37,635 nucleotides of DNA from Candidatus Abyssobacteria bacterium SURF_5 (lineage in GTDB: Bacteria > Abyssobacteria > SURF-5). The notes below the pieces were generated by a model. The model ran no database searches and was not told the origin of the DNA. It saw only the letters and a program-made list of their open reading frames with translations. Of this stretch, positions 11,999 to 33,914 are shown one piece after another. The first letter of the stretch is position 1, and every line of letters starts with the position of its first letter. Position numbers and translations under genes: made by a program. The stretch covers positions 1 through 37,635 of the forward strand of contig QZKU01000043.1 in assembly GCA_003598085.1 (NCBI GenBank). Direction: 5' to 3'.

Positions 11999-12211
11999 TG
12001 TAGGGGCACGGCATGCCGTGCCCGTTTGAAGGGCCGCCCAACAGATACGGGCACAGCTTCATAGATGATTCACGTGCGCAGGTCGTCTCTGCAGGGTCAC
12101 GGCATGCCGTGCCCGTTTGAAAGGCCGCCCAACAGATACGGGCACAGCTTCACAGATGATTCACGTGCGCAGGTTGTCTCTGCAGGGGCACGGCGCGCCG
12201 TGCCCATTTGA
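11999..12211 (+). repeat. 91-bp tandem repeat carrying three class-A REP-like palindromes
   Basis: Palindromes at 12004-12023, about 12095-12114 and about 12186-12205 are spaced exactly 91 bp apart, and the DNA between them is nearly identical (GGCCGCCCAACAGATACGGG and GATTCACGTGCGCAGG recur). The first core, GGGCACGGCATGCCGTGCCC, is a perfect 20-base palindrome; the third is GGCGCGCC-centred. Each is preceded by TGTAGG or GCAGGG and followed by (G/A)TTTGA. The layout suggests duplication of one REP plus its flank rather than a spacer array. Confidence 0.85.
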
Positions 12212-16623: not shown

Positions 16624-19245
16624 TCAGGCGCCCTTGACCATGCGGTCTACTGCTCGTGGCACTTCATCGAGCGCCTCGGCGATCTTGGATGCATCTTTGC
16701 CGCCGGCTTGAGCCATGTCCGGACGTCCGCCGCCGCCGCCTCCTACTATTCGGGCCACGTCCTTGATCAGGTTGCCGGCATGCACTTTGTGGCTAAGATC
16801 CTTCGTAACCGTCGCGATCAAGATTACTTTGCCCTCGGACACCCCGCCGATGACAACGACGCCGGATTTTAATTTTGCCTTGAGCGAATCGGCGGTGTTT
16901 CGCATTTGGGTCGTTTCCTGATCGTCCAGACGAACAGCCAGCACCTTCACACCGTCGACTTCGACCGCTCTCGCAAGCAGATCGTCCACCTTGTCGGCAA
17001 CCACCGCTCGTTTTAAGCGCGCTAGTTCCTTTTCCTGTTTCTTCTTTTCTTCAAGCAACTGGCGAATACGGTCCGGAAGGTTTTCGCGCGGCGCGTTCGC
17101 ATAGCCCGCCGCTTCCTGCAAAATATCCTCGCCTTCCCGTACCCTTCGATATGCGGCGCTCGCACAGACCGCTTCGATTCGACGCATTCCGGCGGCTATC
17201 GATGACTCCGAGATCAGCAGACACAGTCCAATCTCGCCCGTGGAATGCACATGGGTCCCTCCGCAGAGTTCTCTGCTGACGTCGCCCATTTTCACCATGC
17301 GCACCTGGTCGCCATACTTCTCCCCGAACAGCGCGATTGCCCCCTGACGCTTTGCTTCCTCGAACGGCATGACAACAGCCTGCACCGGAAGGTTTTCGCG
17401 AATGCGCTGGTTGAGCAGCATCTCGACCCGACGAAGCTGCCTCCTGTCGGGAGCGGTATAATGCGCGTAATCGAAACGAAAATGATCCGGCGCAACCAGA
17501 GAGCCCGCTTGATACACGTGTTCTCCCAGCACTTCTCTGAGGGCGCTCTGCAACAGATGCGTCGCTGAATGGTGGGCCGCGGTGTCGCGCCGCAGGCTCT
17601 CGTCAACCTGAGCCACAACCTGCAGGCCGATTCGAAGCCCGCCCTTCTTCAGCTTCACCTTGTGAACCCTCAGCCCCTGCACCGGCTCCTTCGTGTTCAC
17701 TACTTCGGCTTCAACGCCGGGGCTAATCAACCGCCCGGTGTCTCCTATCTGGCCGCCTGCCTCAGAATAAAATGGGGTGACATCGAGAATCACTTCGACG
17801 TCCGTCTCCGCCTCGGCGGACTCTGCCGGTGAGCCGTTCACAAGAAGCGCCATGATCTTCGCATCAGCTTGAAGTTCTGAATAGCCAACGAACTCGGCCG
17901 GCGGAACTTTCTGCGACAGGTCGGTGTATATCTGCAGTTCTCCAGCAGCCTCATAACCGGTAAAAGCCGCACGCGCTCGCTCTCGCTGCTTGCTCATCTC
18001 CGATTCGAAGCCTGCCTGATCAAGTGTAAAACCTTCGGCGGCGGCTATCTCCTGCGTCAGCTCGACCGGAAACCCATAGGTGTCATAGAGCCTGAAGAGC
18101 TGAGCGCCATTGATCTCCTTTTTCCCGGCTTGGCTGAGATCATTCATGATATCTCGGAGCAGGCCGAGTCCTTGCGTGAGCGTTTCGAGGAACCGCTCCT
18201 CCTCTGTCTTGATCAAGCGGCTAACATGTTCGCGCTTGCCCTCGAGTTCGGGATACGCCGGTTTATAAATGTCAACGACGGAACCGACCAGACGGTACAG
18301 AAAAGGTTCCTGCATCCCGAGATCGCGTCCGCGCTGGACCGCCCGCCTGAGAATCCTTCGTTCAACATATCCTCTTCCTTCATTCGAAGGAAGCACTCCG
18401 TCACTGATGAGGAAGGTGAGAGCCCGCACGTGATCGGCCATCACCCGATACTGCTCGACCGCGTCGGCCGGATCGACGCCGGTAAGAGATGCCGCATATT
18501 CGATTATCGGCAGAAACAGGTCCGTCCCGAAGTTCGATCGGGTATCCTGCATCACTGCCGCTATCCGCTCAAGTCCCATCCCCGTGTCAATATTCCTTTT
18601 CGGAAGCGGCTGAAGCGCACCGTCGGGCTGGCGGTCGAACTGAGTGAAGACGTGGTTCCAGATCTCCACGTATCGGTCGCAGTCGCATCCGGGGCGGCAA
18701 TCTGGCCTGCCGCAGCCGATGCCTTCGCCATAATCGTAATAGATCTCAGAGCAGGGGCCGCATGGCCCGGTCGGGCCCATCGCCCAGAAATTATCCTTTT
18801 CGTCCATCCGCAAAATTCGCCCGGCCGGCACAAATTTTTTCCAGATGTCGATCGCCTCATCGTCATCCCGAAAAACGCTCACCCAGAGCCGCTCCTTGCG
18901 TATGCCAAGCTCCTTTGTCACATATTCCCAGCCCCAGGCGATTGACTCCTCTTTGAAATAATCGCCGAAGGAGAAGTTGCCAAGCATCTCAAAAAATGTG
19001 TGATGCCGGGTGGTTTTCCCGACATTATCAATATCGGATGTTCTAAAACATTTCTGGCAGGTTGCGGCACGGGTGAATTTGAGTGGAATTTCGCCCAGAA
19101 ACTCTTTCTTGAACTGAACCATTCCGGCGCTCGTAAACAGGAGCGTCGGGTCGTCGGGCGGCACCAGCGGCCAACTCGGCTTTATCGTGTGCCCTCTTAC
19201 GCGGAAAAAATCGAGAAAACTCTCTCGAAGTTCGTTTCCTTTCAT
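16624..19245 (-). CDS. alaS: Alanyl-tRNA synthetase
   Basis: 873 residues, full length for AlaS. The N-terminal class II catalytic domain begins LRESFLDFFRVRGHTIKPSW with motif 2 (TRAATCQKCFR). Motif 3 region GLERIAAVMQ follows. The editing domain has its zinc ligands in HHSATHLLQSAL and CGGTHVHSTGEIG, and the C-terminal C-Ala domain contains a Gly-run followed by GRPDMAQAGGKD. It charges tRNA-Ala and deacylates Ser/Gly mischarging. It is first gene of a leftward operon with its own near-consensus promoter at 19306-19334. Confidence 0.97.
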   Translation of the reverse strand: MKGNELRESFLDFFRVRGHTIKPSWPLVPPDDPTLLFTSAGMVQFKKEFLGEIPLKFTRAATCQKCFRTSDIDNVGKTTRHHTFFEMLGNFSFGDYFKEESIAWGWEYVTKELGIRKERLWVSVFRDDDEAIDIWKKFVPAGRILRMDEKDNFWAMGPTGPCGPCSEIYYDYGEGIGCGRPDCRPGCDCDRYVEIWNHVFTQFDRQPDGALQPLPKRNIDTGMGLERIAAVMQDTRSNFGTDLFLPIIEYAASLTGVDPADAVEQYRVMADHVRALTFLISDGVLPSNEGRGYVERRILRRAVQRGRDLGMQEPFLYRLVGSVVDIYKPAYPELEGKREHVSRLIKTEEERFLETLTQGLGLLRDIMNDLSQAGKKEINGAQLFRLYDTYGFPVELTQEIAAAEGFTLDQAGFESEMSKQRERARAAFTGYEAAGELQIYTDLSQKVPPAEFVGYSELQADAKIMALLVNGSPAESAEAETDVEVILDVTPFYSEAGGQIGDTGRLISPGVEAEVVNTKEPVQGLRVHKVKLKKGGLRIGLQVVAQVDESLRRDTAAHHSATHLLQSALREVLGEHVYQAGSLVAPDHFRFDYAHYTAPDRRQLRRVEMLLNQRIRENLPVQAVVMPFEEAKRQGAIALFGEKYGDQVRMVKMGDVSRELCGGTHVHSTGEIGLCLLISESSIAAGMRRIEAVCASAAYRRVREGEDILQEAAGYANAPRENLPDRIRQLLEEKKKQEKELARLKRAVVADKVDDLLARAVEVDGVKVLAVRLDDQETTQMRNTADSLKAKLKSGVVVIGGVSEGKVILIATVTKDLSHKVHAGNLIKDVARIVGGGGGGRPDMAQAGGKDASKIAEALDEVPRAVDRMVKGA

Positions 19246-27124: not shown

Positions 27125-27842
27125 ACGCAGAGAACTCCGAATCGACGGGCGCGCCTGGAACGAACTGCGCCCCGTCCGCATCCAGAGGGGATTTACGGGG
27201 CACGCCGAAGGCTCGGCCTTCATCGAGATCGGAAAGACTCGCGTCCTCTGCACGGCTTCGGTGGAACCGAAGGTGCCGGACTTCCTGGAAGGCTCCGGCA
27301 AGGGCTGGATCACGGCGGAATACTCCATGCTGCCTCGCTCCACCGTTACGCGCACTTCGCGCGGGCCGTCGGCGCGCTCGTACGAAATCCAGCGACTGAT
27401 CGGACGCGCTCTGCGCTCGGTAACGGACCTTTCCCGTCTCGGCTCGCGCACGATCAGGATCGACTGCGATGTGATAGAAGCCGACGGAAGCACGCGCACT
27501 TCAGCGATCACCGGCTCGTTCATCGCGCTGTATGACGCGCTGAACAAGTTGATCGTCTCGAACGAAGTCGCCTCCATGCCCATCATTCAATTCGTGGCCG
27601 CGACAAGCGTCGGCATTGTAAATGGCCATTCGGTGCTCGACCTTTGTTATGAGGAGGACTCGCGCGCAGACGTTGACCTGAATATCGTGATGACGGAGGA
27701 CGGGCAATTGGTCGAGATACAGGGGACCGCGGAGCGGCCGTTTGAAAGGCTCCTTCTTGATGAGCTGCTTGATCTTGCCCGCGAAGGAATCCAGCAGCTC
27801 GTGACATGGCAACGGAAAACTCTCTTGATTGACAGCGATTGA
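27114..27842 (+). CDS. rph: Ribonuclease PH
   Basis: 242 residues. The start is TTG 27114, supported by GAGGAAG (27101-27107) and coupling with the overlapping ctpA stop. Conserved RNase PH blocks: [50 protein letters not shown] and [16 protein letters not shown]. It is a phosphorolytic 3'-5' exonuclease that trims tRNA 3' ends. rph-rdgB adjacency is a widespread gene pair. The protein is full length. Confidence 0.95.
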
Positions 27843-28480
27843 TGAAGCTTCTGCTCGGAACCAACAATCCCGGGAAAGTCAGGGAGATCTCGAAATTTCT
27901 TGAGGGCGTGCCGCTCGAAATTATCAGTCTCCGGACGTTCGAAGAGATTGTTCCCGTTCGCGAAACGGAGAAATCCTTCCTGGCGAATGCCCGCTTGAAA
28001 GCTTCCGAATATTTCCGCCAGACGGGCCTGTTGACCCTTGCGGAAGACTCGGGCTTGCAAATTGATGCGCTCGACGGTCAGCCCGGCCCGCTCTCGGCCC
28101 GATTTGCCGGAGAGGAAGCTTCCGATGCTGACAACGTCACAAAAGTGCTTCGCCTGTTGCGGGGGATCAAGCCCGCCCGCAGAACCGCCCGGTTTGTTTG
28201 CGTTGTCGCCATTACCGACGGCAGAAAAATCTGGATTGCGACCGGCAAATGCGAGGGCAGAATTGCGACGCGGCCCTGTGGAAAATCCGGTTTCGGATAT
28301 GACCCCATCTTCATTCCGAACGGCTACAAGTCGACGTTCGCGCGACTCGGGGATACGGTGAAGGATCAGGTCAGTCATCGAGCCGAAGCTTTCTGCAAAG
28401 TGAGGCGAATTCTGGAGAGAATAACCGGCAGCCCGAAATATGCCGCCGATGATGCTCCCCGCATTCGCAAGCGCAGTTGA
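27842..28480 (+). CDS. rdgB: XTP/dITP pyrophosphatase (RdgB/HAM1)
   Basis: 212 residues. The ATG at 27842 shares its A with the rph TGA. Family motifs: TNNPGK 7-12 at the N-terminus, LAEDSGL around Glu68-Asp69 (metal/catalytic), QPGPLSARFAG, GKSGFGYDPIF and SHRAEAF at the C-terminus. It hydrolyses non-canonical purine triphosphates (ITP, XTP, dITP) to monophosphates and so keeps them out of DNA and RNA. Repeats and a RAYT gene follow it, splitting the operon. Confidence 0.95.
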   Translation: MKLLLGTNNPGKVREISKFLEGVPLEIISLRTFEEIVPVRETEKSFLANARLKASEYFRQTGLLTLAEDSGLQIDALDGQPGPLSARFAGEEASDADNVTKVLRLLRGIKPARRTARFVCVVAITDGRKIWIATGKCEGRIATRPCGKSGFGYDPIFIPNGYKSTFARLGDTVKDQVSHRAEAFCKVRRILERITGSPKYAADDAPRIRKRS

Positions 28481-28494
28481 GGAATATATGATCC

Positions 28495-28533
28495 TGTAGG
28501 GGCATTCCGCGCTTCGCGGGACCATGCCCGAAA
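28495..28533 (+). repeat. Class-B REP-like palindrome, upstream of RAYT (copy 1)
   Basis: A TGTAGGGGCAT head, inner stem CCGCGCTTCGCGG and tail ATGCCCGAAA. GTAG at the hairpin foot is the tetranucleotide typical of REPs recognised by RAYT enzymes. It begins 14 bases after the rdgB stop. Confidence 0.85.
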
Positions 28534-28551
28534 GGCCGAAACAAATGAACC

Positions 28552-28590
28552 TGTAGGGGCATCCTGCGCTTCGCGGGACCGTGTCCGAAA
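28552..28590 (+). repeat. Class-B REP-like palindrome, upstream of RAYT (copy 2)
   Basis: The same layout as the copy at 28495 and in the same orientation, 18 bases after it: TGTAGGGGCAT, CTGCGCTTCGCGG, GTGTCCGAAA. It ends 18 bases before the RAYT ATG. Confidence 0.85.
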
Positions 28591-28608
28591 AAGCCATACA
28601 ACACGCCC

Positions 28609-29298
28609 ATGAATGACAATAAACCGAACGCTACTCTTCCAAAACGCCGCTCTCTACGGCTAAAGGCATTCGATTACACGCAATCAGGCGCGTATTTCGT
28701 CACAGTCTGCACTCAAGGGAAGAATGACCTCTTCGGGACGATCGTAGATGGACAAATGCAGGCGACGGAATTTGGGCGCGTCGTCGGCGACTGCTGGCAG
28801 GCGCTGCCGAACCATTTCCCGAACGTGCAACTGGATGCGTTCATCGTTATGCCTAATCATATTCACGGCATTCTCATTATTGATTCACCCGAGCGGGCAC
28901 GGCATGCCGTGCCCCTACAATCACGTGTGCTCGAATCATCCGGAAAATTTGCTATACCTGTCTCCGGCGCTCTTTCCACGATAATACGTTCTTTCAAATC
29001 GGCTGCAACCAAACGCATAAACGAATGCGGTAGGGGTGCAGCATCCCGTGCGCAGAAAATTTGGCAACGCAATTATTTTGAACATGTCATCCGAAACGAT
29101 GAATCATTAGACAAGATCCGGGAATACATTTTAAAGAATCCCTTTCAATGGGAATTCGATCGTGAAAACCCGTTTGCTGTGGCCGAAACCGCGGAATCAT
29201 CGGCAAAGCTGAAATATTTCCCTGTAGGGGCATCCCGCGCTTCGCGGGACCGTGCCCGAAAAGCCGTGCTTTCCGCGCGCGGCGCCCGAAAGCAATGA
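28609..29298 (+). CDS. REP-associated tyrosine transposase (RAYT, Y1/HUH, IS200-like)
   Basis: 229 residues. The N-terminal SLRLKAFDYTQSGAYFVTVC is the Y1 transposase start. The HUH metal motif is His84-Ile-His86 in MPNHIHGIL, and Tyr173 in REYILKNP is the likely nucleophile. RAYTs cut and rejoin single-stranded REP DNA at the hairpin foot. Class-B REPs with GTAG feet lie on both sides. Three repeat-like segments form coding sequence: residues about 96-104, 141-149 and 205-218. The first two lie between the HUH and Tyr motifs, the last in the tail. No Shine-Dalgarno is visible. Its stop overlaps the sua5 ATG (ATGA), so downstream translation may be coupled to it. Catalytic residues appear intact. 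Confidence 0.88.
   Translation: MNDNKPNATLPKRRSLRLKAFDYTQSGAYFVTVCTQGKNDLFGTIVDGQMQATEFGRVVGDCWQALPNHFPNVQLDAFIVMPNHIHGILIIDSPERARHAVPLQSRVLESSGKFAIPVSGALSTIIRSFKSAATKRINECGRGAASRAQKIWQRNYFEHVIRNDESLDKIREYILKNPFQWEFDRENPFAVAETAESSAKLKYFPVGASRASRDRARKAVLSARGARKQ
28895..28920 (-). repeat. Class-A REP-like palindrome inside the RAYT coding sequence (inverted)
   Basis: The perfect palindrome GGGCACGGCATGCCGTGCCC followed by CTACAA, the reverse complement of the TTGTAG head. It is translated as part of the RAYT (residues about 96-104) without breaking the frame. Confidence 0.85.
29030..29054 (+). repeat. REP-like segment inside RAYT, divergent class
   Basis: GGTAGGGGTGCAGCATCCCG followed by TGCGC has the GTAGGGG head and a GTGC tail with a new core. 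It encodes RAYT residues about 141-149 (GRGAASRAQ). It is a single copy here, so class membership is tentative. Confidence 0.5.
29223..29261 (+). repeat. Class-B REP-like palindrome encoding the RAYT C-terminal tail
   Basis: TGTAGGGGCATCCCGCGC followed by TTCGCGGGACCG and TGCCCGAAA. It lies in the same orientation as the two copies upstream of the gene and is translated as PVGASRASRDRARK. Confidence 0.85.
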
Positions 29299-29966
29299 AG
29301 ATATTCGAACTGAATCCTGAATCGCCCGAGCCCAACCTGCTTCATGAGATCGGTTCTCTCCTGAAAAAAGGTGGAATCATCGCGTATCCGACTGATACCT
29401 TCTACGCGGTGGGCGGTGACGCCTTCAATCACGAAGTCCACCACCGCGTGCGAATCATGAAGGGACGGGAGGCAAACAAGCCGTTTCCGTTCATCATGGA
29501 TAAGGCGGAGCGGCTGGCGGAATGGGGAATCACTCTGAGCCCGCTTGCGGCTGCGGCCGCCGAACGGTTTTGGCCGGGCCCGCTCTCGCTCATAATCCAG
29601 GATTCTGGGACGCTGCCGGCCGACGTCGTGGACGCGCGGGGGACTCTATGCGTCCGGGTGCCGGCCAACAGGATCGCGCGCACGATTTCCGGCTCGGTCG
29701 GCGGGCTCGTGATAGCGACGAGCGCGAATCCGGCAGGCAAAAAGCCTGCCCGCACCGCGCGCGAAGCAACATCGTGGTTCAAAGGGGAAGTCGATGCCGT
29801 GGTGGACGGCGGCCCCAGTCCCTCGAGCTTGCCCTCCACAATAGTGGAGGTAACGGGAAGAAAAATGATAATATTAAGAGAAGGAGTGATTTCGGTCGAT
29901 CAGCTCATGGCTCTGACAAATGACATCGACAAGGAGATTTTCTTCCAGGAAGGAAACGGATCATGA
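29295..29966 (+). CDS. tsaC: L-threonylcarbamoyladenylate synthase (Sua5/YrdC)
   Basis: 223 residues of the YrdC/Sua5 domain without the Sua5 C-terminal extension. Visible motifs: IIAYPTDTFYAVGGDA, IMKGREANKPFPFIM, WPGPLSLIIQ, CVRVPAN and the substrate loop ATSANPAGKKPART; it ends ILREGVIS. It makes threonylcarbamoyl-AMP for the t6A37 modification of ANN-decoding tRNAs. The ATG overlaps the RAYT stop by 4 bases and its own stop overlaps rpiB by 4 bases. Confidence 0.92.
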   Translation: MKIFELNPESPEPNLLHEIGSLLKKGGIIAYPTDTFYAVGGDAFNHEVHHRVRIMKGREANKPFPFIMDKAERLAEWGITLSPLAAAAAERFWPGPLSLIIQDSGTLPADVVDARGTLCVRVPANRIARTISGSVGGLVIATSANPAGKKPARTAREATSWFKGEVDAVVDGGPSPSSLPSTIVEVTGRKMIILREGVISVDQLMALTNDIDKEIFFQEGNGS

Positions 29967-33884: not shown

Positions 33885-33914
33885 TGTAGGGGCGGCCCCA
33901 TGTGGCCGCCCGCA
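33885..33914 (+). repeat. Class-C REP-like palindrome
   Basis: A TGTAGGGGC head, GGCCCCATGTGGCC core and GCCCGCA tail, 16 bases after the class-B copy and 46 bases before yjbQ. Its internal ATG is in frame with yjbQ but is not taken as the start. Confidence 0.8.

Follow-up and report, generated by a model that had tools for sequence, protein, structure and literature searches.

The gene at positions 28609–29298 (forward strand) of the stretch of DNA analyzed here (the window, 37,635 nucleotides of Candidatus Abyssobacteria bacterium SURF_5) raises the question of how a transposase-like gene came to lie between the housekeeping genes rdgB and sua5, how it relates to the REP palindromes around it, and whether it has been domesticated in this position.

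The gene encodes a genuine RAYT (TnpA-REP). Its open reading frame (ORF) runs for 229 codons without an interrupting stop, and alignment and codon mapping place the HUH motif H84-I85-H86 at 28858–28866 and the catalytic tyrosine motif Y173-ILKNP at 29125–29142, both on the forward strand. In an alignment of 35 homologs, the HUH and Y-x3-NP motifs are intact and the invariant columns are kept. The 229-aa protein matches Pfam Y1_Tnp at 1.5e-6 in a profile search and NCBIfam REP_Tyr_transpos (NF047646) with an E-value of 1e-18, the latter at 67.6 bits, below the cut-off of 80; its match in PHROGs is to just one family of unknown function. A structural model built from 35 aligned sequences has a mean pLDDT of 81.8 with a confidently modelled core, and its first fold match in the PDB is 4ER8, a RAYT in complex with a REP hairpin (E 4.2e-6, TM 0.62 by target length), followed by the ISDra2 and IS608 transposases. 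The alignment profile likewise finds 4ER8 in the PDB (E 5.5e-7), and the single sequence finds no match there by phmmer. Motifs, profiles, and fold thus bear out the preliminary description of this locus, which had reported a Y1/HUH transposase with His-Ile-His and YILKNP motifs. The HUH-Y distance of 89 and a REP read in frame between HUH and Y make it probable that the protein belongs to subclass 2.4.

The home genome (G000) contains two RAYTs, which are 47% identical to each other, and no near-identical transposase copies, the window RAYT having no second copy above that identity. The second, divergent RAYT (L061, contig C91, about 17229–17907) is preceded by class-E REPs that point in opposite directions. 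A search for a close ortholog of the window RAYT returned none, the best match being 50% identical, and in a roughly supported tree the three family RAYTs do not cluster together. The composition of the gene differs from that of its neighbors, with a GC3 of 0.513 versus 0.643 for rdgB and 0.679 for sua5, and a clear ribosome-binding site is absent before both the RAYT gene and sua5.

Three class-B REPs accompany the gene on the forward strand, at about 28496–28529, 28553–28586, and 29224–29257, the first two of them 5′ of the gene. All three share one orientation and a GTAG foot, and each folds into a hairpin bearing a 3-nt bulge. The preliminary description had treated them as flanks (at 28495, 28552, and 29223); their positions, orientation, and feet stand, but the codon map puts the third within the ORF, where, from V206 onward, it supplies the codons for part of the C-terminal tail. 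This REP-derived tail has no counterpart in 34 homologs. These three copies have flanking letters in common, with CT directly 5′ of GTAG, and several other class-B copies have AT instead; CT is the dinucleotide cut in E. coli according to the consulted excerpts of PMC8266576.

An intact class-A REP, overlooked in the preliminary description, lies within the coding sequence between HUH and Tyr (28895–28918, reverse strand; exact pattern match). It is read in frame within residues R96–Q104, and residues 97–103 form the sole run with a pLDDT under 50, the REP-encoded residues being the least confident of the model. A second stretch at 29030–29054 (forward strand) is a probable decayed class-A REP, given 19 of 25 matching letters versus a maximum of 17 in the ORF for 200 shuffled versions. 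Classes A and B share 5′ GGGGCA and 3′ GTGCCC arms, and the class-B bulge sits where class A pairs; this layout suggests that class B may have derived from class A through nesting of a second hairpin.

REPs are concentrated in the window. With at most one mismatch, TGTAGGGGCA occurs 13 times, against a mean of 0.74 and a maximum of 4 in shuffled sequence. Ten of the genome's 92 palindrome-pattern matches fall in the window versus 0.68 expected, and the computed probability of 3e-9 is to be taken as indicative because the reversed control pattern itself gives 29 matches in the home genome and adjacent copies are not independent. At 12000–12210, away from long ORFs, class-A REPs form part of a unit of about 91 bp that is repeated in tandem, with two copies or more. 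A class-C REP at 33886–33911 overlaps the initial ATG given for the ORF at 33900, for which a later start is likelier.

In-frame REPs inside a RAYT gene are no novelty, as they have already been published: in the portions of Quentin et al. 2018 (PMC6006769) consulted, subclass 2.4, which equals RAYT group 4 and has a median HUH-Y distance of 88, is described as holding REPs without a break of frame, generally between HUH and Y. The arrangement is thus known but little studied, and the window RAYT adds another case. Its extent was counted over 130 loci, which yielded 119 distinct ORFs with an HUH motif; the 111 with a W/Y anchor were used and 8 were dropped. At least one GT[AG]GGG hairpin is present in the HUH-Y loop of 66 of these 111 ORFs. 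Per kb, the loop holds 5.60 REPs, compared with 0.15 for the N-terminal part, 0.32 for the C-terminal part, and 1.28 for the 300-nt flanks, so that the loop is 4.4 times denser than flanks that take in neighboring genes. C-terminal REPs such as that of the window RAYT are uncommon, with 5 hairpin feet in all 111 ORFs together. Since the internal REPs comprise 82 distinct strings across the 66 ORFs, inheritance of a single copy does not account for them, though ORFs that are related do not count as independent. The frames in which internal REPs are read are constrained by a TAG in one frame and by double-foot palindromes. In the RAYT of the relative G002 (L018, contig C93, 1373–1487), the loop contains two mutually inverted REPs of one class, and the frame is open. 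These counts put numbers on REPs inside the gene of their presumed moving enzyme, and thereby open target choice and self-regulation to testing.

Such REPs may persist because the HUH-Tyr loop would tolerate extra residues. A broader scenario can be offered tentatively, as a conjecture that we consider rather improbable as a whole: the loop would be a preferred landing place for mobilized hairpins, and RAYT genes would record the REP classes that they have met and might be regulated by their own copy. In the window, class A would then be the older, family-wide class and class B the newer, bulged one, private within the family and derived from a second hairpin nested in class A.

Whether REPs follow their RAYT has different answers for class and for number. 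Class B has 13 copies in the home genome, 3 of them at the window RAYT, and none in G001 or G002; the 78 genomes searched include no further members of the family. Among the other 75 genomes it occurs only in G033 (2) and G041 (3). Class E, which lies beside the second RAYT, has 27 copies in the home genome and none in either relative. Class A numbers 24, 125, and 40 copies in G000, G001, and G002, respectively. Within the family, the RAYT-adjacent classes B and E are therefore private to the home genome, and class A, found inside the gene, is common to all three members. Outside the family, class E occurs in seven other genomes, most abundantly in G033 (40 copies), in which neither similarity to the window RAYT nor PF01797 returned a RAYT match (the genome is 89% complete); this result speaks against strict tracking of class by RAYT. 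The tracking of REP classes that the preliminary description proposed as a check holds in part: two classes are tied to two RAYTs in one small family, with neither class in either relative, and class E in G033 runs counter to it.

Total REP number has no need of a RAYT of this kind. There are 399 GTAG palindrome matches in G001 (control 21), 92 in the home genome (control 29), and 324 in G002 (control 30), and total REPs in G001 are about fourfold those in the home genome. Yet G001 has no match to the window RAYT; as the genome is 92% complete, a RAYT may have been missed. Three Y1 proteins of G001 (L192, L205, and L213) and a third Y1 protein of the home genome (L194) were considered as missing RAYTs and rejected, as their sequences differ and their fetched flanks contain no GT[AG]GGGGC feet. 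Across the 78 genomes, more than 50 REPs above control occur in 8 of 22 RAYT carriers versus 5 of 56 others. Raw counts differ between the two groups (p 9e-5), but control-corrected medians do not (Mann-Whitney p 0.30), and a dependence of total REP number on the presence of a RAYT was accordingly rejected. Carriers were identified by similarity to the window RAYT, an approach that misses RAYTs of other kinds; with PF01797, Y1 proteins come to light in G005, G040, and G048. The preliminary description had regarded REPs equally common in RAYT-free relatives as evidence against a link, and this is partly what is found, since they are more numerous in G001 than in the home genome, yet classes B and E are absent there.

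The distribution of classes also bears on the strongest alternative, in which the enzyme's cognate substrate is the internal class-A REP and not the flanking class B, or in which the RAYT protein binds the hairpin within its gene and the gene is regulated in this way. The excess of REPs in the loop over the flanks is in keeping with such a role, as is the correspondence of classes among the 23 surveyed ORFs that have REPs both in the loop and outside within 1500 nt, 14 of which share a class. The window RAYT is among the other 9, its loop and flank classes being different, and class A is family-wide, even in G001 without such a RAYT, while class B is private. This alternative is judged improbable for the locus at hand.

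The gene neighborhood points to an insertion. Upstream lies rdgB (27842–28480, forward strand), a Ham1-family NTP pyrophosphatase gene (Pfam Ham1p_like, 9e-59), and downstream sua5 (29295–29966, forward strand), encoding L-threonylcarbamoyladenylate synthase (Pfam, 2.1e-48; NCBIfam TIGR00057, 2.6e-46), the sole Sua5 match in the home genome. The RAYT stop and the sua5 start overlap as ATGA at 29295–29298. The rdgB–sua5 gap is 814 nt in the home genome; in G002, 10 nt separate the rdgB stop from the sua5 ATG, and in G001, the two genes overlap at the sua5 start, with no RAYT between the two genes in either relative. The placement of the RAYT between rdgB and sua5, its overlap with the latter, and its insertion together with REPs into a string of housekeeping genes, all put forward in the preliminary description, are upheld by these family matches and by the tight junctions seen once the relatives are compared. 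Because both junctions are tight and RAYT-free, we infer that the REPtron entered after the split from the two relatives, on the lineage of the home genome, within the limit set by just two other family members, with all genomes compared being incomplete drafts. The rdgB stop is followed by GAGGAATATATGA, and ATGA stands at both ends of the insert; GAGGAATATATGA could be the former sua5 start signal, or the resemblance may be chance.

A quite unlikely alternative is that the RAYT has been domesticated, its gene serving the host and the ATGA overlap making sua5 translation depend on it. The overlap itself would be compatible with this reading, and translational coupling of sua5 to the RAYT is possible because no clear ribosome-binding site precedes sua5. 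RAYTs in general are termed domesticated, on the grounds of copy number and vertical inheritance, in the sections of PMC8049555 and PMC8266576 consulted. The locus-specific evidence adds nothing to that general view: the site is empty in both relatives, the composition of the gene is foreign, and the search returned no close ortholog that would demonstrate conservation. The overlap arises because the RAYT frame reads through the third class-B REP, and is a by-product of that REP, not evidence of domestication. The domestication claimed in the preliminary description is not borne out. Among open-licence articles in PMC, nothing further was found on such coupling or on insertion of REPs into the RAYT's own gene.

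Comparably doubtful is the view that the gene is a remnant in decay, with an ORF that stays open by chance and REPs that are passive passengers. Its unusual composition, its tail without counterpart in homologs, and the lack of a clear ribosome-binding site might suggest this, but 229 codons remain without a stop, every column listed as invariant in the 35 homologs is intact, and the core is modelled with confidence.

The explanation that we regard as likely is that a REPtron, probably of subclass 2.4, inserted at the rdgB–sua5 junction after the family split, and that REPs entered the gene as well. The REPtron would consist of the TnpA-REP gene, two class-B GTAG hairpins preceding it, and a third at its 3′ end. 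Homology suggests that the enzyme would cleave and rejoin single-stranded REP hairpins with the GTAG foot as a guide, and the class-B copies elsewhere in the home genome would be its likely products. In the proposed order of events, the unit entered the junction in the home lineage, and REPs entered the RAYT gene, namely the intact class A in the flexible HUH-Tyr loop, the probable decayed copy, and the class B at the 3′ end; the frame would now run through this last REP to a stop at the sua5 start, an overlap that may couple translation. In favor of this insertion are (i) the motifs and the profile and fold matches to 4ER8, (ii) the empty junctions, (iii) the private classes B and E, (iv) the density of loop REPs, (v) the low confidence of the REP-encoded residues, (vi) the lower GC3, and (vii) the HUH-Y distance. 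Against it stand the greater abundance of REPs in G001 and the class-E copies in G033, both without a RAYT match, as well as the NCBIfam score below cut-off and the reliance on two relatives and draft genomes.

Several known systems resemble this locus to different degrees. Intragenic GTAG/CGTC palindromes, including the Rickettsia palindromic elements, are described for many kinds of genes in the parts of Di Nocera et al. 2013 (PMC3733652) consulted; unlike these, the REPs of the window sit in the gene of their presumed mobilizing enzyme. The IS200/IS605 transposases IS608 and ISDra2 share the Y1 HUH fold and hairpin recognition, but the window RAYT differs from them in having no near-identical copies, and neither a second element end nor a partner gene was seen. 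The REPtron of E. coli, whose TnpA-REP falls in group 2 (subclass 2.2; 4ER8), has the same fold, catalytic motifs, GTAG foot, and bulged REP stem, although it belongs to another subclass and is weakly similar in sequence (19% in the structural alignment). The closest likeness is to subclass 2.4, as described in the excerpts of PMC6006769 and judged by the following features: HUH and Y-x3-NP motifs, an HUH-Y distance of about 88, GTAG REPs that neighbor the gene and also lie within it, in frame between HUH and Y, and no conserved C-terminal domain. The window RAYT departs from that pattern in that its internal REP class differs from the neighboring class and in that much of its tail, up to the start of the next gene, derives from an additional REP.
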